Shown: positions 6,361-64,000 of the stretch, one piece after another
Layout: every line of letters starts with the position of its first letter
Position numbering within the stretch: position 1 is the stretch's first letter
From: Chamaelirium japonicum
Lineage: Eukaryota > Streptophyta > Magnoliopsida > Liliales > Melanthiaceae
Direction: 5' to 3'
Assembly (NCBI GenBank): GCA_947650365.1
Contig: OX393551.1
Location: forward strand, 702,001-766,000
Length of the DNA stretch: 64,000 nt
Position numbers and translations under genes: made by a program
The notes under the pieces: generated by a model
The model's database searches: none
What the model was told of the DNA's origin: nothing
The model's input: the letters and a program-made list of their open reading frames with translations, nothing else

Positions 6361-6459
6361 CCATCAGCACCGATACTCAAGGGATTTTTTACACTCGTAG
6401 CAGGGGGTTATTAATTTTGCCCCAAGAATTCAAGCCAGCCAGGATGATCTCTAGCTAAC

Positions 6460-6473
6460 TTGGAGGGGGTAAC
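6460..6473 (+). other. polypurine tract before the 3' LTR
   Basis: The sequence ttggagggggtaac lies directly before the TG that opens the LTR. This is the expected place for the plus-strand primer of an LTR retrotransposon. Confidence 0.7.
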
Positions 6474-6510
6474 TGTGGGTGCAAATTTGGGCAAGAAACC
6501 AACAGACCAC

Positions 6511-6853
6511 GGGGCCCGCCAGCCCTGCTTGGTGAGCCCATAGAGACTACTGCGGGACCCACCAGCCCTGTCTGGTGGGTCCATAGAGACTACCACAGGA
6601 CCCACCAGCCCTGCCTGGTGGGCCCATAGAGACTACCGCAAGACCCACCGGCCTTGCCTGGTGGGTCCACAGAGACTACCTCGAGACCCACCAGCCCTGC
6701 CTGGTGGGCCCATAGAGACTACCGCGGGACCCACCAGTCCTGCCTGGTGAGCCCACAAAGATAATCGCGAGACCCACCAGCCCTGCCTGTAGAATCCCCA
6801 GAGACGATAGCGGGACCCACCAGCCCTGCCTGGAGGATCCCTTGGATTTGACG
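6511..6853. repeat. 43-bp tandem repeats inside the LTR, each with a hairpin
   Basis: About eight units with a 43-bp period; the motif ggaccc or gggccc starts at 6512, 6555, 6598 and 6641. Most units carry CCCACCAG, a 6-nt GC-rich loop, then CTGGTGGG. In the unit starting at 6555 the stem extends to 11 bp (ggacccaccag with ctggtgggtcc). Later units are more divergent. The block lies upstream of the TATA box, in what would be U3. Confidence 0.9.
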
Positions 6854-42400: not shown

Positions 42401-43380
42401 AAGTAGAGTTTTAGAATTTAGATTCCTTCTTAATTCACACCTATACCCGTGGATAATGGACTAGAGCAGAGCTTCTTCTCTCTTTATTTATCTCTCCATT
42501 CTCTTCTCTCTTCTTCTCTCTCTTCAGTCTTTGTTTCTCTCCGTTTTCTTATGACAGGTCAGCTGGGCCCGACATGTTCGTACCGATAATGTGTTGTGAG
42601 AAGAGAAAAGAAGAAAGAAGAGAATGGAGAGATGAATAAAGAGAGAATAGAGAAGAAGTCCTGCTCCAGTCTATTCGTTACGGGTATAGGTATGAAGTAA
42701 GAAGGAATCTAAATTCCAAAACTCCACTTCTCAATAATATAATTAAATCTCCCCGTTCTCTTCTCTTCTCTTTCATGGATTAGGGTTTTCCATAGATTGC
42801 TTAGGCCCTAAGTAAGCTTACCCTATAAATAATATACGACCCCTTTAGGATGGGGCACGTTTGACGGTCGCTCTTTCTCCCATCTCATAATACGTTATCA
42901 GCACGAACATGTCGAGCCCAGCCAACCAGTCGAAAGAAAACGGAGAGAGAAACGAAGATAGAGGAGAGAGAAGAAGAGAGAAGAGAACGGAGATATAAAC
43001 AAAGATAGAAGGGAGAATAAGTCCTACTCCAATCCATTGGTCACAGGTATAGGTGTGAAGTAAGAAGGAATCTAAATTCCAAAACTCCTCAAAAGAGAGA
43101 GAAGAAGAGAAAAAAGAATAGAGAGATAAATAAAGAGAGAAAATAGAAGAAGTTCTACTCCAGTCCATTTGCCACGGATATAGGTATGAAGTAAGAAGGA
43201 ATCTAAATTCCAAAACTATGCTTCTATCTTCGTTTCTCTCTCCGTTTTCATACGACTGGTTAGATGGGCTCGATATTTTTGTGCTGATAACGTATTGTGA
43301 GATAGGAGAAAGAGAAAGTCGTCAAACATGCCCCACCTTAAAGGGGTCGTATATCTATATAACATGGCATGGTGGTCTGC

Positions 43381-43457
43381 ATGCTGACTAGACAAAATGG
43401 TACCAAATGCTGACTAGACAAAAAAACGCTTACTAGATAATGCTGACAAGACAAAAA
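43381..43457 (+). repeat. Helitron subterminal direct repeats
   Basis: TGCTGACTAGACAAAA occurs at 43382 and 43408, with variants cttactagataa and tgctgacaagacaaaa following. The equivalent set is inverted at about 60090-60170 in the full copy. Short subterminal repeats close to a Helitron 5' end may be binding sites, but this is inference. Confidence 0.6.
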
Positions 43458-44319
43458 AATTAGAAAGAGAGAGTCTAGCTCATTTTTTTAAACAGAATTT
43501 TATTGCTCCTAAATAATAAAAAAGAAAACCCAATAACCCAACCCCCCCAAATCGGGAAACCCTCACCCTCGACCCGCCGTTCCCGCCCCTTATCGGACTC
43601 CTCAATGCACCCCCTTCCTCTCGAGCCGCCTTGCCTCTTCCGCACGAGATGATCGCCCACATCATTATCCGCCCTTCACGCCCCACCCTTCACGCCATCG
43701 TCATCGCGTGGCCTTCAAACCCCCCTTTACGCCCTCCTCTTCCCTAGATCAGCCCCCCCTTATCGCGCCGTCCTGAGCGACGCCATCCCGAGCGAGATGA
43801 TAGCCACCTTATCGCGCCGCCTACTTTTCACGCTCTCCTCTTACCCAGATCAACCCCTCATATCCCGTCACCCCTTAAAATCTCGAGCCCCCCCTTCACG
43901 CTCCCCTCATCACACGTCGTTCATGCCCCCCTCTTCCCTAGATCGGTCACCCCTCAAAATCTCGAGCCCAGACCATTGAAGGAAAGATCGTTCCATTCCT
44001 TTTTTGTCGTTCCCACAGATTACGATCGTGGGTCCATGGAAGGAAAGGTTCTTTGCTGATCTCAATCGTCCCCAAATCACATTCAAAACTTTCCGTTTTT
44101 AATCCTCAAAATTTAGGTTATTTTGCTCCCCTTTCATTGAAAAATCGATTCGTATATTTATGCCAATCTCATATGAATTTTCTTTCTTTTTTACTCCCCT
44201 AAATTCAGATGATTTTGCTCCCCTATTTCACCATGGAAGGGAAAATCGATTCCGTATCTTTTTTCCGATATCATTCATCCCCAAATCGATTTTGCTCTTC
44301 GATTTCGTCCCTACAACTG

Positions 44320-44400
44320 CGGCAACCCTTCTGAATTAAAGAAGGGAGAGAAGAGCTACCCTCGGAACACAAACCCATCACCACCAACACGGCCACAGGT
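44320..44400 (+). other. exon-like stretch with splice-donor-like end
   Basis: A leader-like stretch ends in ggccacag followed by gtaagccgc, a good plant 5' splice site (GT at 44399). Upstream, 43530-44320 is GC-rich and cytosine-rich at first, then holds repeated attttgctcccc pieces, without a convincing open frame. I read it as a captured host-gene promoter or 5' UTR. The same structure lies on the minus strand at 59163-59245. Confidence 0.4.
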
Positions 44401-45133
44401 AAGCCGCATCCTCTTTGGAAATCATACATTTCTGGAATGGCTCCAATTTTGTATCAGGTCTTTGATAAACTTTCTCTATATATAATCGACCAAAGCAATC
44501 TAAAACTCTCAGAATAGCTCCAATTTAGTTTTTCAATGGCAACGTTTTTGTTTGAAAAGGTCTTCTTAATCCATACAGGACGGGCCGGACATAAGCCCCG
44601 TTAGAATGGACTGGAGCAGACTTCTTCTCTCTTCTCTCTTCATTTATCTCTATATTCTCTTCTCTTTTCTTCTCTCTTTTCTGTGGAGTTTTAGAATTTA
44701 GATTCCTTCTTACTTTACACCTATACCCATGGCCAATGGACTGGAGCAGGACTTCTTCTCTCTTCTCTCTTCGTTTATCTCTCCATTCTCTTCTTTCTTC
44801 TTCTCTCTCTTCGATCTTTGTTTCTCTCTCTGTTTTTTTATGACTGATCGGTTGGGCTCGATATTTTTGTGCTGATAAAATGTTCTGAGGTGGAAGAAAG
44901 AAGAGAATGGATAGATTTAATTATATTATTAAGAAGTGGAGTTTTGGAATTTAGATTCCTTCTTACTTTATATCTATCTCCGTGGCCAATGGACTAGAGC
45001 AGGACTTCTTCTCTTTTCTCTCTTTATTTATCTCTTTGTTATCTTCTCTCTTCTTCTCTCTCTTCTGTCTTTATTTCTTTCTCCGTTTTCTTATGACTGG
45101 TCAGTTGGGCTCGATATGCTCGTGCTGATAACG

Positions 45134-45359
45134 TGTTATGAGATGAGAAAAAAAAAGAGTCGTCAAACGTGTCCCACCCTAAAAGGGTCATATATTATTT
45201 ATAGAGTAAGCTTACTTAGGGCCTAAGCAATCTATAGGAAAGGGGTCGTATATTATTTATAGGGTAACCTTACTTAGGGCCTAAGTAATATATAGGAAAC
45301 CATAATCCATGGGAGAGATCAGACGGTGGATAGCCATCCCATCGAACGATCTTAGAACA
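45134..45359 (-). repeat. LTR-like module with internal duplication (226 bp)
   Basis: The inverted ends are those of the 168-bp module, but a ~58-bp segment (ggggtcgtatattattta... to the taggaaa word) is tandemly doubled. The mirrored copy at 51315-51540 has exactly the same length. Confidence 0.75.
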
Positions 45360-46255
45360 GTTATAATGTTTTAAATTTTTTTTAAAAAAAATATAAATGA
45401 TTTTTAAAATAAAAAATTCAGATTACCTCATCATCCTTCTTTACTTCCTATTATTTAATTAATTTAATTAGTTTAATAAATAAAATAATTAAATAATTAA
45501 ATAAATAAATAAATATTTAATTATATTTATAATTAAATAACTAAATTATTTAAATAATTTATTTATTATTTAAATAATAAAATAAATAAGTATTTATTTT
45601 ATTACTTCAAAAAATATTAAGTTATTTAAAAAAATATTTTATTATTTATATATTCAAATAATTAACTAATTATTTAAATAATAAGTAAATAGTTATATAA
45701 TTTATTTTTAATTTTATAACTTAATTAAATAATTATATTTTTTTTAATTTAAATATATATTTTATAATTTAATAAAATAATTCTTTAATTATTTTATTGC
45801 ATATTAATTTATTTTAATATTATTTATTTAACTATAAAATTATTTAATATTTAAATTATTTATTTATTTTAGTAAATAATCTATTTAATATATATCTTCA
45901 CTAAATGAGATTTTAAATATTTCAATAATTGACTAATTATTTAACTATCTAAAAATAAAATAATATTTTAAGAAATAACTAATAAAATAAAAGAATTAAT
46001 TAATTATATAATTAAATCAATATTTATTTATTTAATAATTTAAATATTTAAATCGGTATATAATTTAATTATTTAATAATATAATAAAAAAAATTAAAAT
46101 AATTAAATAAGTTTAAAAAATTAATTATTTTATGAAAAATATAATTAATAAATTATTTAAATAATTTAATAATTAAATAAATTATTAATTTAATTTAAAA
46201 AAATTATAATAATATTACTATGATAAATCATAATAACATTGAGATGATACTATTG
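45360..46255. repeat. AT-rich module (A), long copy
   Basis: About 895 bp of A/T with the conserved cctcatcatccttctttact patch at 45425-45450. It ends in ataacattgagatgatacta. It is inverted at 50425-51314. Confidence 0.8.
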
Positions 46256-46909
46256 AGAAGTGGAGTTTTGAAATTTAGATTCCTTCTTACTTCACACCTA
46301 TACCCGTGGCCAATGGACTTGAGTAGGACTTCTTCTCTCTTCTCTCTTTATTTCTCACTCTGTTCTTTTCTTTCTTATTATCTCTCTTCTATGGAATTTT
46401 GGAATTTAGATTTTTTTTACTTCATACCTATACCTATGGCAAATGGAGTGGAGCAGGACTTCTTCTCCATGCGAGATGAGAGAAGAGCATAAAGAGATTA
46501 ATTATATTATTGAGAAGTGGAGTTTTAGAATTTAGATTCCTTCTTACTTCACATCTATACCCCTGGACTGCATCCGGCCTTTTTCTCTCTTTTCTCTTCG
46601 TTTATCTCTCTATCCTCTTCTCTCTTCTTCTCTCTCTTCTGTCATCGTTTCTATCTTCGTTTTCTTGTCTCACCTGGGCACGACATGTTCGTGTTGATAA
46701 CGTGTTGTGAGATGGGAGAAATAAAGGGCCATCACACGTACCGTACCCTAAAGAGGTCATATAAATATTGAGAAGTAGAGGTTTTGAATTTAGATTCCTT
46801 CTTACTTTACACCTATACCAGTGGTGAATAGACTGGAGTAAGACTTATACTATCTTCTCTCTTCGTTTATCTCTTTATTCTTTTCTCTCTTTTGTCTTCG
46901 TTTCTCTCT

Positions 46910-49262
46910 TGATTAAATAATTATATTATTTAATTAAATTATTTAGGTAGAAGAGAGAATAGAACGGAGAGATAAACAAAGAGAGAAGGGGAGAAGAAGT
47001 CATACTCCAGTCCATTGGCCACGGGTATAGGTGTGGAGTAAAAAGGAATCTAAATTCTAAAACTCTACAGACGAGAGAGAAGAAGAGAGAAAAGAAGAGA
47101 GAAAAGAGAGAAGAATAGAGAAGAGAACGTAAAGATAAACAAAAAGATAAGATAGAAGAAGTCCTGCTCCAATCCATTGGCCACGGGTATAAGTGTGAAG
47201 TAATAAGGAATCTAAATTCCAAAACTCCATAAAAGAGAAAGAAGATAAGAACAGACTTCTATTTAATTATTAAAAATAGAGATATTTATATTATTTTCTT
47301 TAGGTTCTCTTTTCTCTTCTCACAACACATTATCAGTACGAACATATCGAGCCCAACCAACTAGTCACAAGAAAATGGAGAGAGAAATAAAGACAGAAGA
47401 GAAAGAAAAAGAGAAAAAAGAACGGAGAGATAAACAAAAAGATAAGATATTAGAAGTCCTGCTCTAGTCCATTCGCCACGGGTATAGGTATGAAGTAAAA
47501 AGGAATATAAATTCCAAAACTCCACTTCTCAATATTTATACGACCCCTTTAGGGTGCGGCATGTATGCCGGCTCTCTATTCTCCCATCTCACAACACGTT
47601 ATCAACATGAACATGTCATGCCCAGCCGACCAGTCACAAGAAAACAGAGAGAGAAACAAAGACAGAAGAGAGAAGAGGACAAAGAGATAAACAAAGAGAC
47701 AATAAAGAAGAAGTCCTGCTCAAGTCCATTGGCCACGGGTATAGGTATGAAGTAAGAAGGAATCTAAATTCAAAAACTCCATAGAAGAAAGAGAAGAAGA
47801 GAGAAGAGAACGAAGTGATAAATGAAGAGAGAAGAGAGAAGAAGTCCTACTCCAATCCTTTGGCCATGGGTATAGGTGTGAAGTAAAAAGGAATCTAAAT
47901 TCCAAAACTTCACTTCTGGCCTCGTTTCTCTCTCTGTTTTCTTATGACTGGTCAGCTGGGCTCGACATATTCGTGCTGATAACGTGTTGTGAGATAAGAA
48001 AAAGAGAGAGCTTTAAATGTGCCCCACCATAAAGGGGTCATAAATTATTTATTATTTATAGGGTAAGCATACTTAGGGCCTAAGCAATCTATAGGAAACC
48101 CTAATCCATGGGAAAAGAGAGAAGAGAATGGCGAGTGTAAATTATATTATTGAGAAGTGGAGTTTTGGAATTTAGATTACTTCTTACTTCACACCTAGAC
48201 CCGTGGTTAGTGGACTAGAGCAGGACTTCGTCTCTATTCTGTCTTCGTTTATCTCTCCGTTCTCTTCTTTCTTGTTCTTTCTCCTCCGCCTTCATTTCTC
48301 TCTTCGTTTTCTTGTGACTGATCGGCTGGGCTCGACATGTTCATACTGATAACATATTATGAGATAGGAGAAAGAAAAAGATGTCAAATATGCTCCACCC
48401 TAAAGGGGTCGTATAAATATTGAGAAGTTGACTATTGGAATTTAGATTCTTCTTACTTCACATCTATATCCGTAGCCAATGGCCTGGAGCAGGACTTCTT
48501 CTCTCTTCGTTTATATTTTCATTCTCTTCTCTCATTTTCTCTCTCTTCTGTCTTCGTTTCTCTCTTCGTTTTCTCTTTTCTCTTTTTCTCTCTATTCTGT
48601 TTTCGTTTCTCTCTCTATTTTCTTGTGACTAGTAGGCTGTGCTCGATATGTTCGTGCTGATAACATGTTGTGAGGTAGAAGAATGAAAGATCCATCAAAT
48701 GTGCCCCACCATAAAGGTGTCATATAAATATTGAGAAATGGAGTTTTGTAATTTAGATTCCTTCTTACTTTATACCTATACACGTGGCTAATGGACTGGA
48801 GTAGGACTTTTTCCCTTTTTGTGCTGATAATGTTACTGTAATTTTTTTAATTAAATTAATTATTTAATTAAAATAAAGAGAGTTTTGGAATTTACTATGA
48901 TAATCATAATAATATTAAGATGATACTATTGAGAAGTGGAGTTTTGGAATTTAGATTCCTTCTTACTTCACACCTATTCCCATGGTGAATGGACTGGAGC
49001 ATGACTTCTTATTTTTTCTTTCTTTATTTATCTCTCTATTGTCTTCTTTTTTCTTCTCTCTTTTGTCTTTGTTTCTCTCTCTATTTTCTTGCGACTGGTC
49101 AGTTGGGCTCGACATGTTCGTGCTGATAACGTATTGTGAATTAGGAGAAAGAGAGAGCCATCAAACATGCCCCACCCTAAAGGGGTCGTATATTATTTAT
49201 AGGGTATGCTTACTTAGGGCCTTAGCAATCTATGGGAAACCCTAATCCATAGGAAAAGAAAG
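46910..49262. repeat. higher-order unit, copy B (~2.35 kb)
   Basis: It has the same landmark order as copies A and C: attatttaattaaattattt at 46925, agacttctatttaattatt at 47250, the doubled ttatttattatttatag at 48045, tgctgataatgttactgtaa at 48822, then minus-strand L/M units. Similarity to copy C continues to about 49600. Confidence 0.8.
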
Positions 49263-50204
49263 AAGAGAACGGAGAGATTTAATTATATTATTGAGAAGTA
49301 GAGTTTTGGAATTTAGATTCCTTCTTACTTCACACCAATACCCTTGGCGAGTGGATTGGAGGAAGACTTCTCTCTTCTCTCTTTATTTATCTCTCTGTTC
49401 TCTTTTCTCTTCTCACAACACATTATCAGCATGAACATATCGAGCTCAGCCGACCAGTCATCAGAAAACGGTGCGAGAAACGAAGACAGAAGAGAGAAAA
49501 GAAGAGAGAAGAGAATGGAGAGATAAATAAAGAGAGAAGAAGAGAAATAAAATATTTTTCATGCTCATAAATTTATATAAATTATTTAATAATTATGTAA
49601 TGTTTTATAATTAAATATTTAAATAATAACATTGAGATGATACTATTTAAATATTTAAAGAAATGATATTCTTTATAATATTTGAAGAAATATTAATTAA
49701 AATAAATAAGTAATCTCTAATCTCACAATACGTTATCAGCATGAACATATTGAGCCCAGCAGACCAATCACCAAAAAACATAGAGAGAAACGAAGACAGA
49801 AGAGAGAGAACGGAGAGAGAAGAGAACAGAGAGATAAACAAAGAAAGAAGAGAGAAGAAGTCCTGCTCCAGTCCATTCACCACGGGTATAGGTGTGAAGT
49901 ATGAAGGAATCTAAATTCCAAAACTCTACTTCTTAATAATATAATTAAATCTCTCCATTCTCTTCTCTCGTCTCCCATGGATTAGGGTTTCCTATAGATT
50001 GCTTAGGCACTAAGTAAGCTTACTCTATAAATAATATATGACCCCTTTAGGGTGCGACACATATAACGGTTCTCTTTTTCTCCCATCACATAATATGTTA
50101 TCAGTACGAACATGTCGAGCTCAGCCGACCAATTACAAAAAATGGTGAGAGAAATAAAGATAGAAGAGAGAGAATAAGAGAGAAGAGAACAAAGAGATAA
50201 ATAA
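49263..50204. repeat. mosaic array block with copy of the 14.24-kb AT patch
   Basis: The stretch to 49600 continues the similarity with copy C, including the rare gaaaacggtgcgagaaac word and gagaaataaaatattttt. The stretch 49603-49940 repeats 14239-14560, sharing taaatatttaaataataaca and the following cacaatacgttatcaac-type unit. Confidence 0.65.
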
Positions 50205-50424
50205 AGAGAGAAAAGATAAGAAGTCCAGCTCCACTCCATTCGCCATAGGTATAGGTATGAAGTAAAAAAATCTAAATTCCAAAACTCCATAGAAGAGAGA
50301 GAATAAGAAAGAAAAGAACGGAGTGAGAAATGAAGAGAGAAGAGAGAAGAAGTCCTACTCAAGTCCATTGGCCACGGGTATAGGTGTGAAGTAAGAAGGA
50401 ATCTAAATTTCAAAACTCCACTTC

Positions 50425-51314
50425 TCAATAGTATCATCTCAATGTTATTATGATTTATCATAGTAATATTATTATAATTTTTTTAAATTAAATTAATAAT
50501 TTATTTAATTATTAAATTATTTAAATAATTTATTAATTATGTTTTTCATAAAATAATTAAATTTTTAAACTTATTTAATTATTTTAATTTTTTTTATTAT
50601 ATTATTAAATAATTAAATTATATACCGATTTAAATATTTAAATTATTAAATAAAGAAATATTTATTTAATTATATAATTAATTAATTATTTTATTTTATT
50701 AGTTATTTCTTAAAATATTATTTTATTTTTAAATAGCTAAATAATTAGTCAATTATTGAAATATTTAAAATCTCATTTAGTGAAGAAATATATTAAATAG
50801 ATTATTTACTAAAATAAATAAATAATTTAAATATTAAATAATTTTATAGTTAAATAAATAATAAAAAAAAAAATTAAAATGCAATTAAATAATTAATGAA
50901 TTATTTTATTAAATTATAAAATTTATATTTAAATTAAAAAAAAAAATTAATTATTTAATTAAGTTATAAAATTAAAAATAAATTATATAACTATTTACTT
51001 ATTATTTAAATAATTAGTTAATTATTTGAATATATAAATAATAAAATATTTTTTTAAATAACTTAATATTTTTTAAATTAATAAAATAAATACTTATTTA
51101 TTTTAATATTTAAATAATAAATAAATTATTTAAATAATTTAGTTATTTAATTATAAATATAATTAAATATTTATTTAATTGTTTAATTATTTTATTTATT
51201 AAACTAATTAAATTAATTAAATAATAGGAAGTAAAGAAGGAAGATGAGGTAATCTAAATTTTTTATTTTAAAAATCATTTATATTTTTTTTAAAAAAATT
51301 TAAAACATTATAAC
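50425..51314. repeat. AT-rich module (A), long copy, inverted
   Basis: It starts agtatcatctcaatgttatt and ends at cattataac just before the LTR-like module. It is the inverse of 45360-46255 with a few percent difference by eye. Confidence 0.8.
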
Positions 51315-51540
51315 TGTTCTAAGATCGTTCGATGGGATGGCTATCCACCGTCTGATCTCTCCCATGGATTATGGTTTCCTATATATTACTTAGGCCTTAA
51401 GTAAGGTTACCCTATAAATAATATACGACCCCTTTCCTATAGATTGCTTAGGCCCTAAGTAAGCTTACTCTATAAATAATATATGACCCTTTTAGGGTGG
51501 GACATATTTGACGACTCTTTTTTTTTCTCATCTCATAACA
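51315..51540 (+). repeat. LTR-like module with internal duplication (226 bp), plus strand
   Basis: It begins TGTTCTAAGATCG and ends TCATCTCATAACA, with the same doubled ~58-bp segment as its mirror copy. It is followed by cgttatcagcacgagcatat. Confidence 0.75.
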
Positions 51541-52065
51541 CGTTATCAGCACGAGCATATCGGGCCCAACCGACCAGTCATAAGAAAACGGAGAGAGAAA
51601 TAAAGACAGAAGAGAGAGAAGAAGAGAGAAGATAACAAAGAGATAAATGAAGAGAGAAAAGAGAAGAAGTCCTGCTCTAGTCCATTGGCCACGGAGATAG
51701 ATATGAAGTAAGAAGGAATCTAAATTCCGAAACTCCACTTCTTAATAATATAATTTAATCTATTTATTCTCTTCTTTCTTCTACCTCAGAACATTTTATT
51801 AGCACAAAAATATCGAGCCCAACCGACCAATCATAAAAAAACAGAGAGAGAAACAAAGATCGAAGAGAGAGAAGAAGAAAGAAGAGAATGGAGAGATAAA
51901 CGAAGAGAGAAGAGAGAAGAAGTCCTGCTCCAGTCCATTGGCCATGGGTATAGGTGTAAAGTAAGAAGGAATCTAAATTCCAAAACTCCACAGAAAAGAG
52001 AGAAGAAAAGAAAAGAGAATATAAAGATAAATGAAGAGAGAAGAGAGAAGAAGTCTGCTCCAGTC

Positions 52066-52320
52066 CATTGTCCACAGGTATAGGTGTGAAGTAAGAAGAA
52101 ATCTAAATTCCAAAACTCCACTTATATCTTTATATATCTCTCTGTTATCTTTTCTCTTCTTTTCTCTCTTCTATGTAGTTTTAGAATTTAGATTCCTTCT
52201 TACTTCACACCTATACCTATGGCTAATAGACTGGAGCAGGACTTCTTCTCTCTTCTCTCTTTATTTATCTCCCTGTTCTCTTCTCTCTTCTTCTTTCTCT
52301 TCTGTCTTAGTTTCTCCCTC
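52066..52320. repeat. mosaic array block between inner arm and copy C
   Basis: The end of a plus-strand M piece, then two minus-strand M pieces. There is no gene. Confidence 0.65.
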
Positions 52321-54660
52321 AATTAAATAATTATATTATTTAATTAAATATTTAGGTTGAAGAGAAAAGAAAACGGAGAGATAAACGAAGAGAGAAGGGC
52401 AAAAGTAGTCTTGCTCCAATCCATTGGCCAAGGGTATAGGTGTGAAGTAAGAAGGAATCTAAATTCCAAAACTCCATAGAAGAGAGAAAAGAAGTGAGAA
52501 GAGAACGGAGAATGGAAAAAAAAGAGAAGAATCGAGAAGAGAATATAGAGATTAACGAAGAGAGAAGAGAGAAGAAGTATTGCTCCAGTCTATTGGCCAC
52601 AGGTATAGGTATGAAGTAATAAGGAATCTTAATTCCAAAACTCTACAGAAGAGACAGAAGATAAGGAAAGACTTCTACTTAATTATTAAAACTAGAGAGA
52701 TTTATATTAATTTATTTAGGTCCTCTGCTCTTTTCTCACAACATGTTATCAGCACAAACATATTGAGCCCTACCAACTAGTCACAAGAAAACGGAGAGAG
52801 AAACAAAGATAAAAGAAAGAGAAAAAGATAGAAGAGAACGGAGAGATAAATGAAGAGAGAAGAGAAAAGAAGTCCTGCTCCAATCCATTGGCCATGGGTA
52901 TAAGTGTGAAGTAAAAAAGAATCTAAATTCCAAAACTCCACTTCTTAATATTTATATGACCCCTATAGGGTAGGGCATGTGTAATGGCTCTCTCTTTCTC
53001 CCATCTCATAACACGTTATCAGCACGAATATATCGAGCCCAGTCGACCAATTATAAGATAATAGAGTGAGAAACGAAGACAAAAGAAAAAGAAGAAGAGA
53101 GAAGTGAACGGAGAGATAAATAAAAAGAGAAGAGAGAAGAAGTCTTGCTCCAATCCATTGGCCACGGGTATAGGTGTAAAGTAAGAAGGAATCTAAATTC
53201 AAAAACTCAACAGAAGAGAGAGAAGAAGAGGAAAGAGAATAGAGAGATAAATAAAGAGAGATGAAAGAAGAAGTCCTACTCTAATCCAAAACTTCACTTA
53301 TGTCTTCGTTTATTTCTCTATTTTCTTAGGACTGGTCTGCTGGGCTCGACATATTCATACTAATAACATGTTGTGAGATGGGAGAAAGAGAGAGCTGTCA
53401 AACATGCACCACCCTAAATGGGTCATATATTATTTATTATTTATAGAGTAAGCTTATTTAGGGTCTAAGCAGTCTATGGGAAACCCTAATCCATGGGAGA
53501 AGAGAGAAGAGAATGGAGAGATTTAATTATATTATTGAAAACTGGAGTTTTGGAATTTAGATTACTTCTTACTTTATACCTAGACCCGTGGCCAATGGAC
53601 TGTAGTAGGACTTCTTCTCTCTTTTCTCTTTATTTATCTCTCCGTTATCTTCTATCTTATTCTTTCTCTTTTGTTTTTTCTCTATCTCCGTTTTCTTATA
53701 ACTGATCGGCTAGGCTCGATATGTTCATACTGATAACGTGTTATGAGATAGAGAAAGAGAGAGCCGTCAAATGTGCACCACCCTAAAGGGGTCGTATAAA
53801 TATTGAGAAGTTGAGTTTTTAAATTTAGATTCCATCTTACTTCACACCTATACTCATGGCTAATAGATTAGAGCAGGACTTTTTCTCTCTTTGTTTATCT
53901 CTTCATTCTCTTCTCTCTTCTTTTCTCTCTTATGTCTTTGTTTCTCTCTCTGTTTTCTCTTCTCTCTTCTTCTCTCTCTTCTGTGTTCGTTTCTCTCTCT
54001 ATTTTTACTTGACTGGTAGGCTGGGCTCAATATGTTTATTCTGATAATATATTATGAGTGGAAGAAAGAGAGAGCCATCAAACGTGCACCACCCTAAAGG
54101 GGTCATATAAATATTGAGAAGTAGAGTTTTGTAATTTAGATTCCTTCTTACTTCATACGTATACCCATGGCCAATGGACTGGAGCAGGATTTCTTCTCTT
54201 TTCGTATTAATAATGTTACTATAATTTTTTTAATTAAATTAATTATTTAATTAAAATGAAGTGAGTTTTGGAATTTACTATGATAATCATAATAACTTCG
54301 AGATGATGCTAATAAGAAGTGGAGTTTTGGAATTTAGATTCCTTCTTACTTCACACTTATACCTATGGCGAATGGACTGGAGTAGGACTTCTTTTCTCTT
54401 TTCTCTTTATTTATCTCTCCGTTCTCTTCTCTTTTCTTCTCTTTTTTATGTTTTTGTTTCTCTTTTCGTTTCCTTATGACTGGTCGGCTGGGCTCGATAT
54501 GTTCATACTGATAACGAATTATGAGATAGGAGAAAGAGAGAGCCATCGAACATACCCCACTATAAAGGGACCGTATTTATTTATAGGGTAAACTTACTTA
54601 GGGCCTAAGTAATCTATGGGAAACCCTAATCCATAGGAGAATAGGAAAGAGAATGGAGAT
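52321..54660. repeat. higher-order unit, copy C (~2.34 kb)
   Basis: Landmarks are attatttaattaaatattta at 52335, agacttctacttaattatta at 52668, the doubled ttatttattatttatag at 53430 and ttactataatttttttaatt at 54220. Order and spacing match copy B closely. B and C stay similar through the gaaaacggtgcaagaaac word to about 54955. Confidence 0.8.
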
Positions 54661-55091
54661 ATTTAATTATATTATTGAGAAGTCAAGTTTTGGAATTTAG
54701 ATTCCTTCTTACTTCACTCCTATAACCTTTTTATTATTCTTTCTGTTCTCTTCTCTCTTCTTCTCTCTTCTCACAATACATTATCAGCACGAATATAACG
54801 AGCCTAGCTGACCAGTCACAAGAAAACGGTGCAAGAAACGAAGACAGAAGAGAGAGAAGAAGAGAAAAAAGAACAGAGAGATAAATAAAGAGAGAAGAAG
54901 AGAAATAAAATATTTTTTGTGCTTAAAAATTTATATAAATTATTTAATAAATATATAATAATTTATGATAATAAGAAAACAGAGAGATAAACGAAGAGAG
55001 AAGAGAGAAGAAGTCCTACTCCAGTCCATTGGCCACGGGTATAGGTGTAAAGTAAGAAGGAATCTAAATTCCAAAACTCCACTTCTCATAA
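54661..55091. repeat. mosaic array block
   Basis: To about 54955 this continues copy C, including gagaaataaaatattttttg. Then a plus-strand M piece meets a minus-strand one at 55080-55095 in a tight foldback (cacttctcata/agaagtg). Confidence 0.65.
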
Positions 55092-55845
55092 GAAGTGGAG
55101 TTTTGGATTTTAGATTCCTTCTTACTTCACACCTATACCCGTGGCCATTGCACTGAAGCAGGTCTTTTTCTTTCTTCTCTCTTCATTTATCTCTCTGTTC
55201 TCTCTGTTCTTTTTTGTCTTCTTCTCTCTCTTCTGTATTCGTTTCTCTCTCCGTTTTTTTGTGACTGGTCGGTTGGGGTCGACATGTTTATTCTGATAAC
55301 GCGTTGTAAGAAGAGAGAAGAAAAGAGAAGAGAACGAAGAGGTAAACGAAGAGAGGTGTCTTGTTCATGTCCATTTACCATGGGTATTGGTATGAAGTAA
55401 GCAGAAACCTAAATTCCAAAACTCTATTTCTCAATAATACAATTAAATCTCTCCGTTCTCTTCTTGATATCTTATATGGATTAGGGTTTCCTATAGATTG
55501 CTTAGGCCCTAAGTAAGCTAACCTTATAAATAATATACGATCCTCTTGGGGTGGGGAACGTTTGACGGCTCTCTCTTTCTCCTATCGCACAACACATTAT
55601 CAGCAAAAACATATCAAGCCCAGCCGACCAGTCGTAAGAAAAGGGAGAGAGAAACAAAGACAGAAGTGGAGTTTTAGAATTTAGATTCCTTCTTACTTCA
55701 CAACTATACCCGTGGCCAATAGAGTGGAGCAGGACTTCTTCTCTCTTCTCTCTTTGTTTATTTCTCCGTTTTCTTCTATCTTCTCCTATAGATTAGGGTT
55801 TCACATAGATTGCTTAGGCCCTAAGTAAGATTACCCTATAAATAA
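55092..55845. repeat. 3.37-kb tandem unit, copy 1, left part (before the Helitron)
   Basis: It matches 62806-63573, sharing the variants ttttggattttag, ggttggggt and cataccatttaccatgggta-type words. The unit continues on the far side of the Helitron at 60195-62805. Confidence 0.75.
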
Positions 55846-55849
55846 CTAG
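55846..55849 (-). other. Helitron 3' terminus CTAG
   Basis: CTAG followed by T of the host site on the minus strand; the bases before it are GGCACGGGCATGCA. A ggcacgggc core close to CTAG resembles plant Helitron tails, though I see only a poor stem for it. Confidence 0.75.
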
Positions 55850-55861
55850 TGCATGCCCGTG

Positions 55862-55970
55862 CCTGTCGGCTCTGCAGTGGGCCGCCTTCGGTGACAAAAC
55901 ACAGTTGGACTGCCTTCGATGGTAACACACCTATCGGCACTGCAGTGGGCCACCTTCGGTTGCAAAGACA
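55862..55970. repeat. direct repeats near the Helitron 3' end
   Basis: tgtcggctctgcagtgggcc then gccttcggtgacaaa recurs about 68 bp later as tatcggcactgcagtgggcc and accttcggttgcaaa. A decayed piece (actgccttcgatggtaac) lies between. Confidence 0.65.
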
Positions 55971-56234
55971 TCCCCTAGATATCACCACTACCACCCACAA
56001 CGTCGTATTCGAAAGCCCGTGTCCAAGGGCATAAAAAAGATTTCGAAAGCGGCAAAAAATATTTCGATGGCAAGAACTATATTTTGAGGGAGGTGACAAT
56101 AATTCAAAGGTGACGACATAATTTCGGGAGATGTGATAATATTTCAACTCTTTCGGCATCACACATTCAATAGCTCATAAAGAATTTTAAAATTTTGAAT
56201 ATAATTTGATTGATTCTTTAAAACAAACAAAACT

Positions 56235-56600
56235 ATAACTTGAATGAGTTGAATCTGGCAAGCTAAAAAAAACAAAAACAAAACGGAAAGAACAAAAAAA
56301 CAATAAAAAGGGAAAAATAAATAACAAAACAAAAATAAAAACAGAGCTGAAAATAAAAAAAAAAGGGGAAGGAAAAGAAAAGAAGAATCGGTAAAAGAAC
56401 AAAAAAAAAGGAAACCAAATAAAGAAGGAAAAAATTAACTATATATATAGAGAGAGAGGGCAGGGAAGAGCCACTGGCCAATCTTGCCCTCCCCTGAACA
56501 TATAGAAAAAAATTGTAAATGAACAAAAAGAACAAAATAGAGAGAGAAAAAAAATTGAAAAGAATAGGACAGTACAGAGTAAGAGAGAGAAAAAGTGGGA
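56235..56600. repeat. A-rich / purine-rich low-complexity tract
   Basis: About 360 bp dominated by aaaaac, gaaaag and gagaga words, with a cagggaagagcc island at 56460. It has no coding signal; the frames across it are low-complexity. Confidence 0.7.
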
Positions 56601-56626
56601 GTGCAGGGAGGAGACACCGGGTGTTA

Positions 56627-56925
56627 TCGGTGTGTCGGATCGGAAAAAGAGGCGGCAGAGCAGAGGGATGGATCTGACAACCCTGTATGCTCCAACTGTT
56701 GTGTCGATTCAAGTAACCCAGCGCGTCGGCTTGGAGGAGGCGGCGAGGGGCCGGATCTGACACCCCCGCACACTCTCGCTGTTGTTTTGCACCGGAGGTG
56801 TCAGGGCACCGATTTGTGCAGCTCGACGTGTCGGATCGGAGGAGGCCACACAACGCCAGATCCGGTACCCCCGCACGCTGCTAGTACTGCTATGCGCCAG
56901 AGGAGGGGCTTCAGGGAGAATATCA
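56627..56925. repeat. three ~100-bp GC-rich imperfect tandem repeats
   Basis: gtgtcggatcggaa at 56632, gcgtcggcttggagg near 56722 and gtgtcggatcggagg at 56828 open units that each continue to gatctgac or gatccggtac and a ccgcac-type word. A plus-strand frame of 151 codons crosses them (56595-57050), but its composition simply follows the repeats and I do not call it a gene. Confidence 0.6.
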
Positions 56926-57050
56926 TCCTGCAACCCATTAATCAGCTATTTTTTGATAATAGTTTGAGAAGATTTGATGTTCAGAATTGCTTAGACAGAA
57001 TGAAAAGAAAAAAAATAGTACTGGAAAACAATGCAAAGGTAGATATTTAA

Positions 57051-57740
57051 GACATATTCAGATCATGCACTGTCATCATCTATAGCTTAATGGGGCAGGT
57101 TCATCTCTAATTTTTATCACTCAGAGGGAATGGAAAACTATAAAAATGGCACTAAGCATCCACCAATTGATTCATCAAGTGCAACCGAATAAGGTAGGGA
57201 AATCTCCATAAAATTGTGTGGATATTCAATCATATTATGAAACTTGGAAATTTTAAGCTATATAGGGACTACATACCTATAACTTAAGGTTTGAATCAAA
57301 ATTCATAACAGCCGATTCTTCATTAAAGTTTCAGATCATGCAATGTCATCATCTTTATTCTAAGGACTAAGAACAACATTATCTTGGCTGTGTTCTAAAT
57401 GCACTTGTTACATCAAAGCAGCACAATCTGGTCACCACACCATTAGTCTGCTTTGGAAATCAAAAGGTTCAGTCAATTAGGTCTCCTTCAAGTTTTGGAT
57501 CCTACCGTGATAGAAGAGGAAAAAAAAAGGGGAAAAAATCAAGGCCATCCACAATACCAATGATAGGTGACTAATTCCCTAAATTTCATTAACAAATAAT
57601 CAAAGCTACAACATTAGTATAATGTAGAGATTATAGCAAATAAAAAAAAACTAAAGTTACAATCTTAGCTTGTAAATCTCCATGACTATCGAGCAAAGCT
57701 GATCGCCCAGGGGAAAAGGGATAGGATAAATATGACTGCA

Positions 57741-57742
<2 letters not shown>
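57051..57742. other. single-copy-looking Helitron interior, nothing recognised
   Basis: About 690 bp of moderately AT-rich sequence with no open frame of note. One short repeated phrase (ttcagatcatgca then gtcatcatct) occurs at 57056 and 57331. It could be captured intron or intergenic DNA. Confidence 0.5.

Positions 57743-57776
<34 letters not shown>
57743..57776. repeat. (GA)n microsatellite
   Basis: About 16 uninterrupted GA units inside the Helitron. Confidence 0.9.
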
Positions 57777-57778
<2 letters not shown>

Positions 57779-57782
57779 CCAG

Positions 57783-58013
57783 CTAAGACAACCTCCCTTT
57801 AAAAGCATACAAAGAAACAAATGCAAATAGGGAAATAGAAAGAAATAGGGGGAGAAAAAATAAGAAGAATTTTGCTCGAAAAAATTGCTGAAAAAAAAAT
57901 TAGATTGATTTTGCCAAAAAAGACAACCTCCCTTTAGAAGCATACAAAGAAACAAATGCAAGTAGGGAAATAGAAAGAAATATGGGGAGAAAAAATAAGA
58001 AGAATTTTGCCAT
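57783..58013. repeat. ~97-bp direct duplication inside the Helitron
   Basis: aagacaacctccctttaaaa starting at 57784 and aagacaacctccctttagaa starting near 57918 each run about 97 bp, to taagaagaattttgc, with only a few differences. Confidence 0.8.
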
Positions 58014-58068
58014 TTTTTTTAATTTGTCATCGACCAAATCAACATGGTTTCTTAGAAAAAAGTATAAA

Positions 58069-58292
58069 AGAGATGGGTCTCTCAGCGGTGCACCGAGAGA
58101 CCCTTTGCATGTCAGTGGCAAAAGGAGATTGTAGTTTTCAAAATATGATTAGATTTTAAAAAACACTTATCACCCACATATATAAATTTTGATTTTGAAA
58201 AACACTTATCGTTTCTTAAATAAAATTACAATAGAGATGGTTCTCTCGGTGGTGCACCGAGAGACCCTTTGCATGTCAGTATCAAAGGGACA
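58069..58292. repeat. pair of duplicated GC hairpins
   Basis: At 58069-58128 and 58232-58291 the phrase agagatgg, then tctctc, then ggtgcaccgagagaccc and tttgcatgtcagt occurs twice. The second copy has a perfect 10-bp stem (tctctcggtg with caccgagaga) around 3 nt. Confidence 0.75.
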
Positions 58293-58429
58293 CTGTTGTT
58301 TTCAAAATATGATTTTGAAAACAAAGGCATCTTTTTAGAAGCATAGAAATTGAATTTTATATAGATATAAATACTTTGTTTTCTTGGCCAAAGAATATCC
58401 CACCTCGGTTTGATACATGCGTTGGTGTT

Positions 58430-58970
58430 GTATAATCGCTGCAAAAAAACCAAAACAAAAAATCAGGGATTAAAAACAATGATTTCTGCACAGACAAAGA
58501 GAACCAAGAGATAAAAAAAAGCCAAGACACAAATATCAAATTTCTTCTAAGAAACCAAGAAAAAAAAATCAGCAAGAGAGAGAGATTGGAACGGGATTTC
58601 TGACGGGGCTTACATACAATGTTTTTTGCAGGAGCAATGCTATTAAGCCCGAAGGTTTTCCCAATCACACTCAGCCCGATTGACGTGGCAGCGTGCAACT
58701 GGTGGTGTAAAGAACTTTAAGGTCGCTACTGGTTTTCAGCCACCAGTTGCACGCTGCCATGTCAATCGGGCCGCCGAAATAAAAAAAAACCTTCGGGATG
58801 AGTTGCATTTCTCTTTCTGCAGACAAAGAAAACCAAGATAACAAAGATCTCACCTTGGTGTTGAATAACTGCTGCAAAAAAACCAATAAAACCATTGATT
58901 AAAAACAAAATCATCCAAAAAAAAAATCAGCAAGAGAGAGAGATGGGTATGGGAATTCTGACGGGGCTTA
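58430..58970. repeat. duplicated flanks around the long hairpin
   Basis: 58430-58615 and 58855-58970 share gctgcaaaaaaacca, gattaaaaaca, atcagcaagagagagaga and ttctgacggggctta in the same order. The hairpin at 58648-58797 lies between them, as if the flank was duplicated around it. Confidence 0.65.
58648..58797. repeat. long hairpin (32-bp inner stem)
   Basis: The inner arms at 58674-58705 and 58740-58771 are complementary over 32 bp with a single G-T type mismatch and a 34-nt loop. An outer pair, cccgaaggtttt (58648) and aaaaccttcggg (58786), extends the fold after an internal loop. Such a fold could be a small foldback element or an inverted duplication; transcribed, it would make a double-stranded RNA stem. 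Confidence 0.85.
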
Positions 58971-59162
58971 TGTCCGGCCCGTCCTGTATGGATTAAGAAG
59001 ACCTTTTCAAACAAAAACATTGCTATTGAAAAACTGAATTGGAGCTATTCCGAGAGTTTTAGATTGCTTTGGTCGATTATATATAGAGAAATTTTATCAA
59101 AGACCTGATACAAAATTGGAGCCATTCCAGAAATGCATGATTTCCAAAGAGGATGCGGCTTA

Positions 59163-59245
59163 CCTGTGGCCGTGTTGGTGGTAATGGGTTTGTGTTCCAA
59201 GGGTAGCTCTTCTCTCCCTCCTTTAATTCACAAGGGTTGCCGCAG
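59163..59245 (-). other. exon-like stretch with splice-donor-like end (full Helitron copy)
   Basis: The minus-strand counterpart of the 44320-44400 stretch: aacacggccacag followed by gtaagcc, GT at 59163. Further downstream on the minus strand, tttttttgcag acceptor-like sites are followed by a short piece and a gtgag donor-like site (near 58850-58875). This fits captured exon and intron pieces of a host gene that I cannot name. Confidence 0.4.
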
Positions 59246-60194
59246 TTGTAGGGACGAAATCGAAGAGCAAAATCGATTTGGGGATGAATGATATCGGAAA
59301 AAAGATACGAAATCGATTTTCCCTTCCATGGTGAAATAGGGGAGCAAAATCATCTGAATTTAGGGGAGTAAAAAAGAAAGAAAATTCATATGAGATTGGC
59401 ATAAATATACGAATCGATTTTTCAATGAAAGGGGAGCAAAATAACCTGAATTTTGAGGATTAAAAACGAAAAGTTTTGAATGTGATTTGGGGACGATTGA
59501 GATCAGCAAAGAACCTTTCCTTCCATGGAGCCGCGATCGCAATCTGTGGGAACGACAAAAAAGGAATGGAACGATCTTTCCTTCAACGGTCTGGGCTCGA
59601 GATTTTGAGGGGTGACCGATCTAGGGAAGAGGGGGCCATGAACGACGTATGATGAGGGGAGCGTGAAGGGGGGGCTCAAGATTTTAAGGGGTGACGGGAT
59701 ATGAGGGGTTGATCTGGGTAAGAGGGGAGCTTAAAAAGCAGGCGGCGTGATAAGGTGGCTATCATCTCGCTCGGGATGGCGTCGCTCAGGACGGCGCGAT
59801 AAGGGGTGGCTGATCCGGGGAAGAGGAGGGCGTGAAGGGGGGTTTGAAGGCCACGCGATGACGATGGCGTGAAGGGCGGATAATGAGGTGGGCGATCATC
59901 TCGCGCGGAAGAGGCAAGGCGGCTCGAGAGGAAGGGGGTGAATTGAGGAGTCCGATAAGGGGCTGGAACGGCGGGTCGAGGGTGAGGGTTTCCCGATTTG
60001 GGGGGGTTGGGTTATTGGGTTTTCTTTTTTATTATTTAGGAGCAATAAAATTCTATTTAAAAAAATAAGCTAGACTCTCTCTTTCTAATTTTTTTGTCTT
60101 GTCAGCATTATCTAGTCAGCGTTTTTTTGTCTAGTCAGCATTTGGTACCATTTTGTCTAGTCAGCATGCAGACCGCCATGCCATGTTATATAGA

Positions 60195-62805
60195 TATACG
60201 ACCCCTTTAAGGTGGGGCATGTTTGATGACTTTCTCTTTCTCCTATCTCACAATACGTTATCAGCACAAAAATATCGAGCCCATCTAACCAGTCGTATGA
60301 AAACGGAGAGAGAAACGAAGATAGAAGTATAGTTTTGGAATTTAGATTCCTTCTTACTTCATACCTATATCCGTGGCCAATGGACTGGAGTAGAACTTCT
60401 TCTATTTTCTCTCTTTATTTATCTCTCTATTCTTTTTTCTCTTCTTCTCTCTCTTTTGTGGAGTTTTGGAATTTAGATTCCTTCTTACTTCACACCTATA
60501 CCTGTAACCAATGGATTGGAGTAGGACTTATTCTCCCTTCTAATTATGTTTATATCTCCGTTCTCTTCTCTCTTCTTCTCTCTCCTCTATCTTCGTTTCT
60601 CTCTCCATTTTCTTTCGACTGGTTGGCTGGGCTCGACATGTTCGTGCTGATAACGTATTATGAGATGGGAGAAAGAGCGAGCCATCAAACGTGCCCCATC
60701 CTAAAGGGGTTATATATTATTTATAGGGTAAGCTTACTTAGGGCCTAAGCAATCTATGGAAAACCCTAATCCATGAAAGAGAAGAGAAGAGAACAGGGAG
60801 ATTTAATTATATTATTGAGAAGTGGAGTTTTGGAATTTAGATTCCTTCTTACTTCATACCTATACCCGTAACGAATAGACTGGAGCAGGACTTCTTCTCT
60901 TTTCTCTCTTTATTCATCTCTCCATTCTCTTCTTTCTTCTTTTCTCTACTCACAACACATTATCGGTACGAACATGTCGAGCCCAGCTGACATGTCGTAA
61001 GAAAACGGAGAGAAACAAAGACTGAAGAGAGAGAAGAAGAGAGAAGAGAATGGAGAGATAAATAAAGAGAGAAGAAGCCCTGCTCTAGTCCATTGTCCAC
61101 GGGTATAGGTGTGAATTAAGAAGGAATCTAAATTCTAAAACTCTACTTCTCAATATTTGTACGACCCCTTTATGGTGGGGCACGTTTAACGGGTCTTCTT
61201 TGTCCTATCTCACAATACATTATCAACATGAACATGTCGAGCCCAGCCAACCAGTCGTACAAAAATAGAAAGAGAAACAAAGACAGAAGTGGAGTTTTTG
61301 ATTTTAGATTTCTACTTACTTCACACCTATACCCGTGGCTAATAGACTGGGGCAGGACTTCTTCTTTCTTCTTTCTTTATTTATCTCTCTGTTCTCTTTT
61401 CTTTTCTTCTCTCTCTTCTATAGAGTTTTGGGCTAGAGCAGAACGTTTTCTCCCTTCTATCTTCGTTTATCTCTCTGTTCTCTTCTCTATTCTATCTTTG
61501 TTTCTCTCTCAATTTTATTGTGACTTATCAGCTGGGATCGATATGTTCGTGCTGATAACGTGTTGTGAGATTGGAGAGAGAGAGAGAGCCGTCAAATATG
61601 CCCCACCCTAAAGGGGTCGTATAAATATTAAGAAGTGGAGTTTTGGAATTTAGATTCCTTCTTACTTCACTGCTATACCCGTGACCAATGGCTTGGAGCA
61701 GGACTTCTTCTCTCTTCTTTGTTTGTTTATCTCTTCGTTCTTTTTTCTCTTTATCTCTCTCTTCTGTCTTTATTTCTCTCTCTGTTTTCTTATGACGGGT
61801 TGACCGGGCTTGACATGTTCATGCTGATAACGTGTTATGAGAAGAGAGAAGAGAGAAGAGAAGGGAGAGATAAATGAATTATTTAACGACTAGGCTCGAT
61901 ATGTTCATACTGATAACGTGTTGTAAGATGGGATAAAGAGAGAGCCGTCATATGTGCCCCACCCTTTATATTATTTATATGGTAAGCTTACTTAGGACTT
62001 AAGCAATCTATGAGAAACCCTATTCCGAAAGAAAGATCCGACGGTGGATAATGAACTAGAGTAGGTCTTCTTCTCTCTTCTCTCTTTATTTATCTCTCTG
62101 TTCTCTTCTCTCTTCTTTTTAATCTTCTGTGGAGTTTTGGAATTTACATTCCTTCCTACTTCACACCTTTACCCGTGGTTAATGGACTGGACTAGGACTT
62201 CTTCTCTCTTCTTTCTTTGTTTGTTCCCTCTTCTTCTCTCTCTGCTTTCTTCGTTTCTCTCTCTCTCTTCTATCTTCATTTTTCTCTTTGTTTTCTTGTG
62301 ACTGGTCGGCTGGGCTCGACATGTTCGTGCTGATAATGTGTTTTGAGAAGAGAGAAGAGAATAAAAAGATAACCGAAGAGAGAAGAAGTACTGCTCTAAT
62401 CCATTCTCCGTTCTCTTCTCTCTTCTCCCATGGATTAGGGTTTACTATAGATTGCTTAGGCCCTAAGTAAGCTTACACTATAAATAATATATTACCCCTT
62501 TTGGATAGGGCACGTTTGACGGCTCTCTTTTTCTCCCATCTAACAACACGTTGTCGGATTTTTTCTGACTTCACACCTATACCCGTGGCCAATGGAATAA
62601 AGCTGAACTTTTTCTCTCTTCTCTCTTTATTTATCTCTCTGATCTCTTCTCTCTTCTTCTATCTCTTATGTTTTTGTTTATCTCTCCGTTTTCTTATGAC
62701 TGGTCGGTTGAGCTCGAAATGATCGTGCTGATAACGTGTTGTGAGATGAGTCAAAAAGAGAGCCGTCAAACGTGCCCTACCTTAAAGGGATCGTATAAAT
62801 ATTGA
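60195..62805. repeat. 3.37-kb tandem unit, copy 1, right part (after the Helitron)
   Basis: It resumes with tatacgacccctttaaggt. The first part matches the stretch after the empty site: gatgactttctctttctcc and aaaatatcgagcccat here, gatgactttatctttctcc and aaaatgtcgagcccat there. The rest is ordinary array, inverted at 40745-43353. Confidence 0.75.
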
Positions 62806-64000
62806 GAAGTAGAGTTTTGGATTTTAGATTCTTTTTTACATCACACTTATACCCGTGGCCAATGCACTAGAGTAGGTCTTCTTCTCTCTTCTCTCTTCTC
62901 ACATCATTTATCTCTCTGTTCTCTTCGTTCTTTTCTCTCTTCTGTCTTTGTTTCTCTCTGTTTTTTTGTGACTAGTCAGTTGGGGTTGACATGTTCATGC
63001 TGATAATATATTGTGAGAAGAGAGAAGAGAACAGAGAGATAAATGAAGAGAGAAGCGAACAGAGAGATAAACGAAGAAAGAAGAAGTCCTGCTCATATCC
63101 ATTTACCACGGGTATAGGTACGAAGTAAGAAGGAACCTAAATTCCAAAACTCCATTTCTCAATAACGTAATTAAATCTCTTTGTTCTCTTCTTTATCTCT
63201 CATATGGATTAGGGTTTCCTATAGATTGCTTAGGCCCTAAGTAATCTTACCTTTTAAATAATATACGACCCTCTAAGGGTTGGGAATGTTTGACGACTCT
63301 CTCTTTCGCCCATCTCACAACACATTATCAGCACGAACATGTCAAGCCCAGCTGACCAATCGTAAAAAAACAGAGAGAGAAATGAAGACAGAAGTGGAGT
63401 TTTGGAATATAGATTCCTTCTAACTTTACACATATACCTGTAGCCAATGGACTGAAGTAGGACTTCTTCTCTCTTCTATCTTTGTTTATTTCTTCGTTCT
63501 CTTCTATCTTCTCCAATGGATTTGGCTTTCTCATAGATTGCTTAGGCCCTAAGTAAGCTTACCCTATAAATAATATACGACCCCTTTAGGGTAGGGCACG
63601 TTTGATGACTTTATCTTTCTCCCATCTCACAGCACGTTATCAGCACGAAAATGTCGAGCCCATCCGACCAGTCGTAAGAAAATAGAGAGAGAAACGGAGA
63701 CAGAAGTAGAGTTTTGGAATTTAGATTCCTTCTTACTTCACACCTATACTCGTGGCCAATGGACTGGAGTAGGACTTCTTCTCTTTTCTCTCTTTATTTA
63801 CCTCTTTATTTTCTTCTCTCTACTTCTCTTTTTTTTGTGGAGTTTTGGAATTTAGATTCCTTCTTACTTTACACCTATACTTGTGGCCAATGGACTGGAG
63901 CAGGACTTCTTCTCTCTTCTCTCTTCTTTCTTTTCTCTTCTCTTTTTATCTCTCTCTTTTGTCTTCATTTATATCTCCGTTTTCTTGTAGTTAGTCGGTT
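62806..64000. repeat. 3.37-kb tandem unit, copy 2 (cut by the window end)
   Basis: It matches 55092-55845 followed directly by 60195-60620, that is, copy 1 without the Helitron. The unoccupied Helitron site lies between 63573 and 63574 in ctataaataatatacgac. Confidence 0.75.

Follow-up and report, generated by a model that had tools for sequence, protein, structure and literature searches.

A Non-Autonomous Helitron in a Satellite of Chamaelirium japonicum and the Head-to-Tail Joins of Its Family

Organization of the Locus

The window analyzed here is a stretch of 64,000 nucleotides from the genome assembly of Chamaelirium japonicum (GCA_947650365.1, contig OX393551.1, positions 702,001 to 766,000 of the forward strand), in which an insert of 4349 bp interrupts a satellite (Table 1). 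The insert belongs to a large family of Helitrons, the rolling-circle transposons, in which it is an ordinary and apparently non-coding copy. It is almost certainly a canonical non-autonomous Helitron of the Helitron1 type that lies on the minus strand, was placed once in the satellite, and was later duplicated with it. In the window copy, the ends of a Helitron are cleanly proved by internal evidence.

Table 1. Coordinates of the Helitron and of the features connected with it in the window.
Feature	Position	Strand	Remarks
Non-autonomous Helitron, 4349 bp	55846..60194	-	Ends, empty site, family copies elsewhere, no Pfam match in 7 open reading frames
5' terminus TCTATATAAC	60185..60194	-	Host A at 60195 precedes (minus strand)
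3' terminus CTAG	55846..55849	-	Host T at 55845 follows (minus strand)
Hairpin GAGCC-GACA-GGCAC in the window copy, 4/5 pairs	55859..55872	-	Family form GTGCC-GACA-GGCAC
Left flank, satellite holding the Helitron	55533..55845	+	
Right flank, interrupted satellite unit resumes	60195..60493	+	
Paralogous satellite without insert	62806..64000	+	Empty point 63573/63574
Second, truncated copy of the element, same satellite site, inverted arm	43354..44607	-	L028, L088
Large imperfect palindrome	39482..64000	.	Arms 96-97%, spacer near 46468-50214

Ends of the Element and the Empty Site

On the minus strand the element runs from TCTATATAAC to CATGCACTAG, with a host A on its 5' side and a host T on its 3' side. 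At the boundaries the plus strand reads ...CCCTATAAATAA / CTAGTGCATGCCCG...ATGTTATATAGA / TATACGACCCC and the minus strand ...GGGGTCGTATA / TCTATATAACATGG...GGGCATGCACTAG / TTATTTATAGGG, where a slash marks an insertion edge; read further on the minus strand, host ...GGGGTCGTATA is followed by TCTATATAACATGGCATGG...CAGGCACGGGCATGCACTAG of the element and then by host TTATTTATAGGG. The window sequence alone permits a one-base shift of these edges, as one A can be assigned to either side, an ambiguity that the family copies at other loci settle as A/TC...CTAG/T. The 5'-TC and CTRR-3' termini of Helitron1 are found both in the window element and in the family ends, and the empty sites and the flanks outside the satellite site show that insertion took place between A and T with no duplication of the target. 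The TC/CTAG ends and the A/T site already fit Helitron1 as against Helitron2/Helentron, a group marked by asymmetric terminal inverted repeats and by a hairpin at each terminus. Terminal inverted repeats were not apparent when TCTATATAACATGG was compared by eye, with no search run, with the reverse-complemented 3' end CTAGTGCATGCCCG.

A previous reading of this DNA from its letters alone (hereafter the sequence-only reading) had proposed a Helitron with TC and CTAG ends, inserted between A and T with no target duplication. The exact ends, the empty sites, and the family copies elsewhere bear out its identification, and the empty site and the flanks elsewhere confirm its account of the insertion; its limits of 55846-60194 stand as well, with the orientation corrected to the minus strand. 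It had also stated that the flanks join to array sequence. Indeed, when they are joined without the element they restore the satellite unit CCCTATAAATAA-TATACGACCCC, and their alignment to 62600-64000 contains 798 identities, 115 mismatches, and 10 gap columns, with no gap at the join itself. The unoccupied paralogous site that it had recognized at 62806-64000 is thus present, although not as the sole such site in the window. A query of 120 bases, made of 60 flank bases from either side, has 54 window matches that cross the join, 41 of them gap-free, and a 39-bp pattern of the empty site is matched 28,556 times in the genome with up to three mismatches (backward control: 0). Judged by these two counts, the empty site does exist, is highly abundant, and does not represent a single paralogue. 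A longer joined query of 371 bases (55680-55845 plus 60195-60399) was covered over 370-371 bases, at 92-94% identity, at 40 of the 40 genome places scored out of 11,396 first-look candidates.

The satellite itself occupies approximately 7300-55845 and 60195-64000 of the window, where it is scrambled and carries a TATA-like CTATAAATAA motif, with AT-rich stretches in between. The 100 places listed for the satellite site pattern, all of them on C1-C5, form clusters. Some are no farther than 0.5 Mb from the start of a contig (C2-C5), and others lie inside contigs, at C1:116-117 Mb and at C4:23.7-24.1 Mb, the latter frequently with a spacing of about 18.8 kb.

Copies at the Satellite Site

A genome search with the whole element retrieved 25 full-length matches, among them that of the window, as well as one copy from which a short piece is absent and another that is split into two parts about 13 kb apart. 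At the satellite site, the flank TTATTTATAGGGTAA is common to all of the 27 3' ends retrieved, and TCGTATA to all of the 28 5' ends, with the truncated second window copy counted. Moreover, 8/8 full copies compared (L001-L008, again with the window's) match the window flanks over 1500 bp per side at 94-100%. In view of these shared flanks, the most plausible origin of the copies at the satellite site is a single insertion that duplication has multiplied, and they are uninformative on mobility. Such multiplication of a single insertion by satellite duplication inflates copy counts and imitates activity.

Most of these copies fall in repeated blocks that contain two direct copies about 18.8 kb apart and one inverted copy about 15 kb away (19.5 kb in the block on C14), whereas two stand alone, at C4:0.26 Mb and C33:0.24 Mb. 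The arms of the palindrome in the window pair 41142-44607 with 58955-62409 (96.3%), 44605-46467 with 50215-52069 (96.8%), and 39482-41070 with 62405-64000 (96.9%). The inverted arm has no counterpart of 52070-58954, and the deletion removed the 3' part of the element copy that it carries. Judged by copy positions, a similar palindrome block is found on C33, C4 (twice), C12, C36, C43, C80, and C14.

The spacing and direct orientation of the copies within a block, together with their common flanks, could also be expected if the segment were native to a repeat unit of about 18.8 kb and the "empty" units had arisen from it by precise deletion. This would have to be reconciled with 28,556 occurrences of the empty site and with family ends at thousands of places, which at those read have unrelated flanks, and we regard it as exceedingly improbable. 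The sequence-only reading had named copies that run past 55846 or 60194 without a break as evidence against its boundaries. In a formal sense such copies exist, because those at the satellite site duplicate the already filled site; the copies at unrelated sites end at both termini.

Family Copies Elsewhere and the 3' Hairpin

With up to three mismatches, the 3' end pattern of the family has 5,911 genome matches (backward control: 0) and the 5' end pattern 4,987 (backward control: 4), counts that take in the duplicated satellite blocks. Outside the satellite site, the base ahead of TC is A at 14/14 retrieved loci with intact first bases; L078 and L086, whose first bases are altered, were set aside, and joins to another Helitron were tallied apart. 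The base beyond the 3' end is T at 12/13 retrieved loci, the exception being L094 with an altered terminus. In pairwise comparison of the thirteen 3' flanks only those of L068 and L089 are similar, via a TA repeat, and these two insertions may not be independent of each other. Copies of the ends with different flanks and insertion between A and T, which the sequence-only reading had suggested as a check, were found accordingly.

The family possesses a subterminal hairpin with a 5-bp stem, 13 nucleotides before the 3' terminus and hence at the distance typical of Helitron1 (about 10-15 nucleotides before the 3' end). Outside the satellite site, 21 family 3' ends from 18 loci form 98 of their 105 possible stem pairs if G-T is taken as paired. 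This tally consists of 93/100 pairs in 20 ends and of one further end from L111, in which the stem GTACC-GATA-GGTAC shows a compensated pair change (G-C to A-T) and is still paired. The stem of the window copy, GAGCC, has a single inner mismatch. If that of the window is counted, 27 copies were retrieved at the satellite site: 24 have GAGCC, one has GAGCT, and in two the stem is fully paired; the latter are the stand-alone copies L061 and L065, one of them with a G-T pair. As the stem is fully paired in these two and pairs in the family, the damage most likely arose after the insertion.

The sequence-only reading had noted almost no 3' hairpin and had considered a variant Helitron family that moves without one. 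Its remark fits the window copy only, where the inner mismatch is present and where folds of the last 30-80 nucleotides vary with the length taken. The pairing of the stem throughout the family, and in two copies at the satellite site itself, leads us to reject a hairpin-less variant family as very unlikely.

Coding Content, Transposase Source, and Proposed History

The element is overlapped by 34 stop-to-stop open reading frames of at least 60 amino acids, and the seven that were searched had no Pfam match (E 0.01). Captured genes or a RepHel transposase within the element thus found no Pfam support in these seven of the 34 frames. Elsewhere in the genome, 150 matches to Helitron_like_N (PF14214) were scored out of 315 candidates, and none of the 150 lies within the window. 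Of 100 listed head-to-tail joins between family ends (489 in total, see below), two are located 5.4 and 5.9 kb downstream of a same-strand Rep match, as is one of 100 listed family 3' ends (5,911 in total) at 4.5 kb. The chance expectation for a Rep match within 3-8 kb is 0.025 and 0.026 for the two lists. These Rep matches likely point to autonomous relatives that share the 3' end of the family.

Within the Helitron there are also two direct duplications, 57785-58010 and 58044-58314 (91 nucleotides at 97% and 107 nucleotides at 86%). An Rfam match to mir-16 at 58677-58768 scores 39.1 bits against a gathering threshold of 36.5; it falls on an inverted repeat and is probably a chance match.

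Several points weigh against the classification as a canonical non-autonomous Helitron. The origin of the inner part of the element, for example from captured gene pieces, is left unexplained by it, with seven of the 34 frames searched. Candidate RepHel elements lie at C9:27.20 Mb, C12:31.80 Mb, and C1:14.86 Mb; for the one on C9, which was followed, no family 5' end was found within 4.6 kb upstream of the Rep match. The 3' ends in the hairpin tally were chosen with a pattern that contains the stem (8/30 mismatches allowed), which somewhat favors paired stems. Finally, the 5-bp stem of the family is short compared with the palindrome of 16-20 bp in maize Helitrons (PMC2267711).

If the element is a canonical Helitron nevertheless, a RepHel transposase supplied by another locus of the genome would have copied one of its strands, starting at the 5' TC and finishing at the 3' CTAG; the subterminal hairpin would have acted as the stop signal. 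The copied strand would then have been joined, once, into a single unit of the abundant satellite, between an A and a T. Later the filled unit would have been duplicated with its satellite surroundings, inverted pairs included, to yield at least the 27 copies retrieved, and the hairpin stem would have gained its mismatch in the course of this duplication.

Head-to-Tail Joins of Family Ends

Family ends also occur directly next to each other. Exact CTAG/TC head-to-tail joins were found at 489 places genome-wide (up to three mismatches; 245 forward and 244 reverse; control: 0). Head-to-head joins were represented by one place, with three mismatches and seen on both strands owing to the palindromic pattern, and tail-to-tail joins by none in the genome pattern search. 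The head-to-head count may be too low, because perfect palindromes are unstable and difficult to assemble. Ends parted by 1-30 bases gave five exact matches, versus 62 exact matches among the listed joins with zero bases in between. Adjacency of Helitrons by chance at random AT sites was considered and rejected, as about 0.1 joins would be expected (AT frequency from 11 loci) versus the 489 found.

Three arrays with six joins altogether were read (L066, L110, and L111); L110 and L111 were chosen for their short units, and the three may be atypical. None of the joins unites near-identical neighbors. In L066, neighboring elements are alike in their end regions only. In L110 the similarity of neighbors covers end pieces, with 59 terminal bases at 92%, as well as some short inner ones. 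Of the two pairs in L111, one shows 76% likeness over 379 bp and the other is alike at both ends (75-78%). Over the last 100 nucleotides, the upstream and the middle element are 74% (L066), 67% (L110), and 76% (L111) identical, compared to 81% as the median of 105 pairs taken at 15 other loci, where the values range from 64 to 100%.

The unlike neighbors suggest serial insertion at the resident copy's own end. The strict orientation, the lack of spare bases, and the unlike neighbors together would fit insertion at a terminus cut by the transposase. We therefore propose, tentatively and at a little less than an even chance, that resident termini serve as insertion sites, where a new copy joins in the same orientation and with no spare base, either at the A/TC start or at the CTAG/T end. 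The resident terminus would be the transposase's own cleavage site and for this reason the target of the new copy, and successive insertions of this kind would give rise to strings in which unlike Helitrons follow one another head to tail, resembling concatemers.

Genuine rolling-circle concatemers, as proposed for bats, are the alternative for the joins, although not for the window copy. They would produce exact CTAG/TC joins with a strong orientation bias (489 places vs. one vs. none), circles with joined ends are known for Helraiser (PMC5876387), and the short and related elements of L111 (76% over 379 bp) look as units of an old concatemer might. What such an origin does not readily provide is the dissimilarity of neighbors: near-identical ones are missing from all six joins read, L066 and L110 align mainly at the ends, and the last 100 nucleotides of array neighbors fall below the median at other loci. 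We judge the concatemer origin to be doubtful, at appreciably less than an even chance, but concatemers altered by later events may also be compatible with the joins. The 489 exact joins could decide between concatemers and serial insertion through the identity of the neighbors and their ages.

Comparison with Known Helitrons

The present family resembles maize Helitrons (PMC2267711) and rice DHH_Mothra (PMC4683698) in its TC/CTAG ends, A/T site, 3' hairpin, and non-autonomous copies, a likeness in described features. DHH_Mothra likewise has its hairpin 13 bp from the end and a high copy number (PMC4683698). Unlike in maize Helitrons and DHH_Mothra, the present stem consists of 5 bp with a GACA loop, and the window copy is borne by a satellite and was amplified with it.

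Helraiser/Helibat1 of bats (PMC4778049, PMC5876387) shares the TC/CTAG ends, the A/T insertion, a hairpin near the 3' end, and precise head-to-tail junctions. The Helraiser hairpin is a terminator, and head-to-tail junctions occur in its circles (PMC4778049, PMC5876387), whereas its palindrome of 19 bp (PMC4778049) contrasts with the 5-bp stem seen here. The head-to-tail copies of bats have been interpreted as support for rolling-circle copying (PMC4778049, PMC5876387).

Head-to-tail Helitrons are known from bats, from maize, and from plants generally (PMC2267711, PMC5876387). In maize, an exact CTAG/TC join is described, also between unlike elements (PMC2267711), compared to 489 joins within one family in the present case. 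From rice, CentHel arrays with many tandem copies are reported (PMC10095026); according to the description, the rice elements are truncated and stand in tandem arrays, whereas the present family forms 489 exact joins. The notable part is the number of joins and their uniform orientation, with unlike neighbors in the arrays read. Literature titles and abstract openings yielded no report of hundreds of exact joins between unlike Helitrons; as subscription journals were mostly uncovered, we do not claim that such a report is absent.

Other Features of the Window

Remains of a Gypsy-like retrotransposon at 946-2980 and 4016-4624 comprise aspartyl protease, reverse transcriptase, and RNase H, together with a sub-threshold match to Transposase_28. 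The tandem repeats at 5076-6833 differ from the main satellite; one period is about 118 bp, in repeats rich in CCGATCGGT, and the other about 43 bp.

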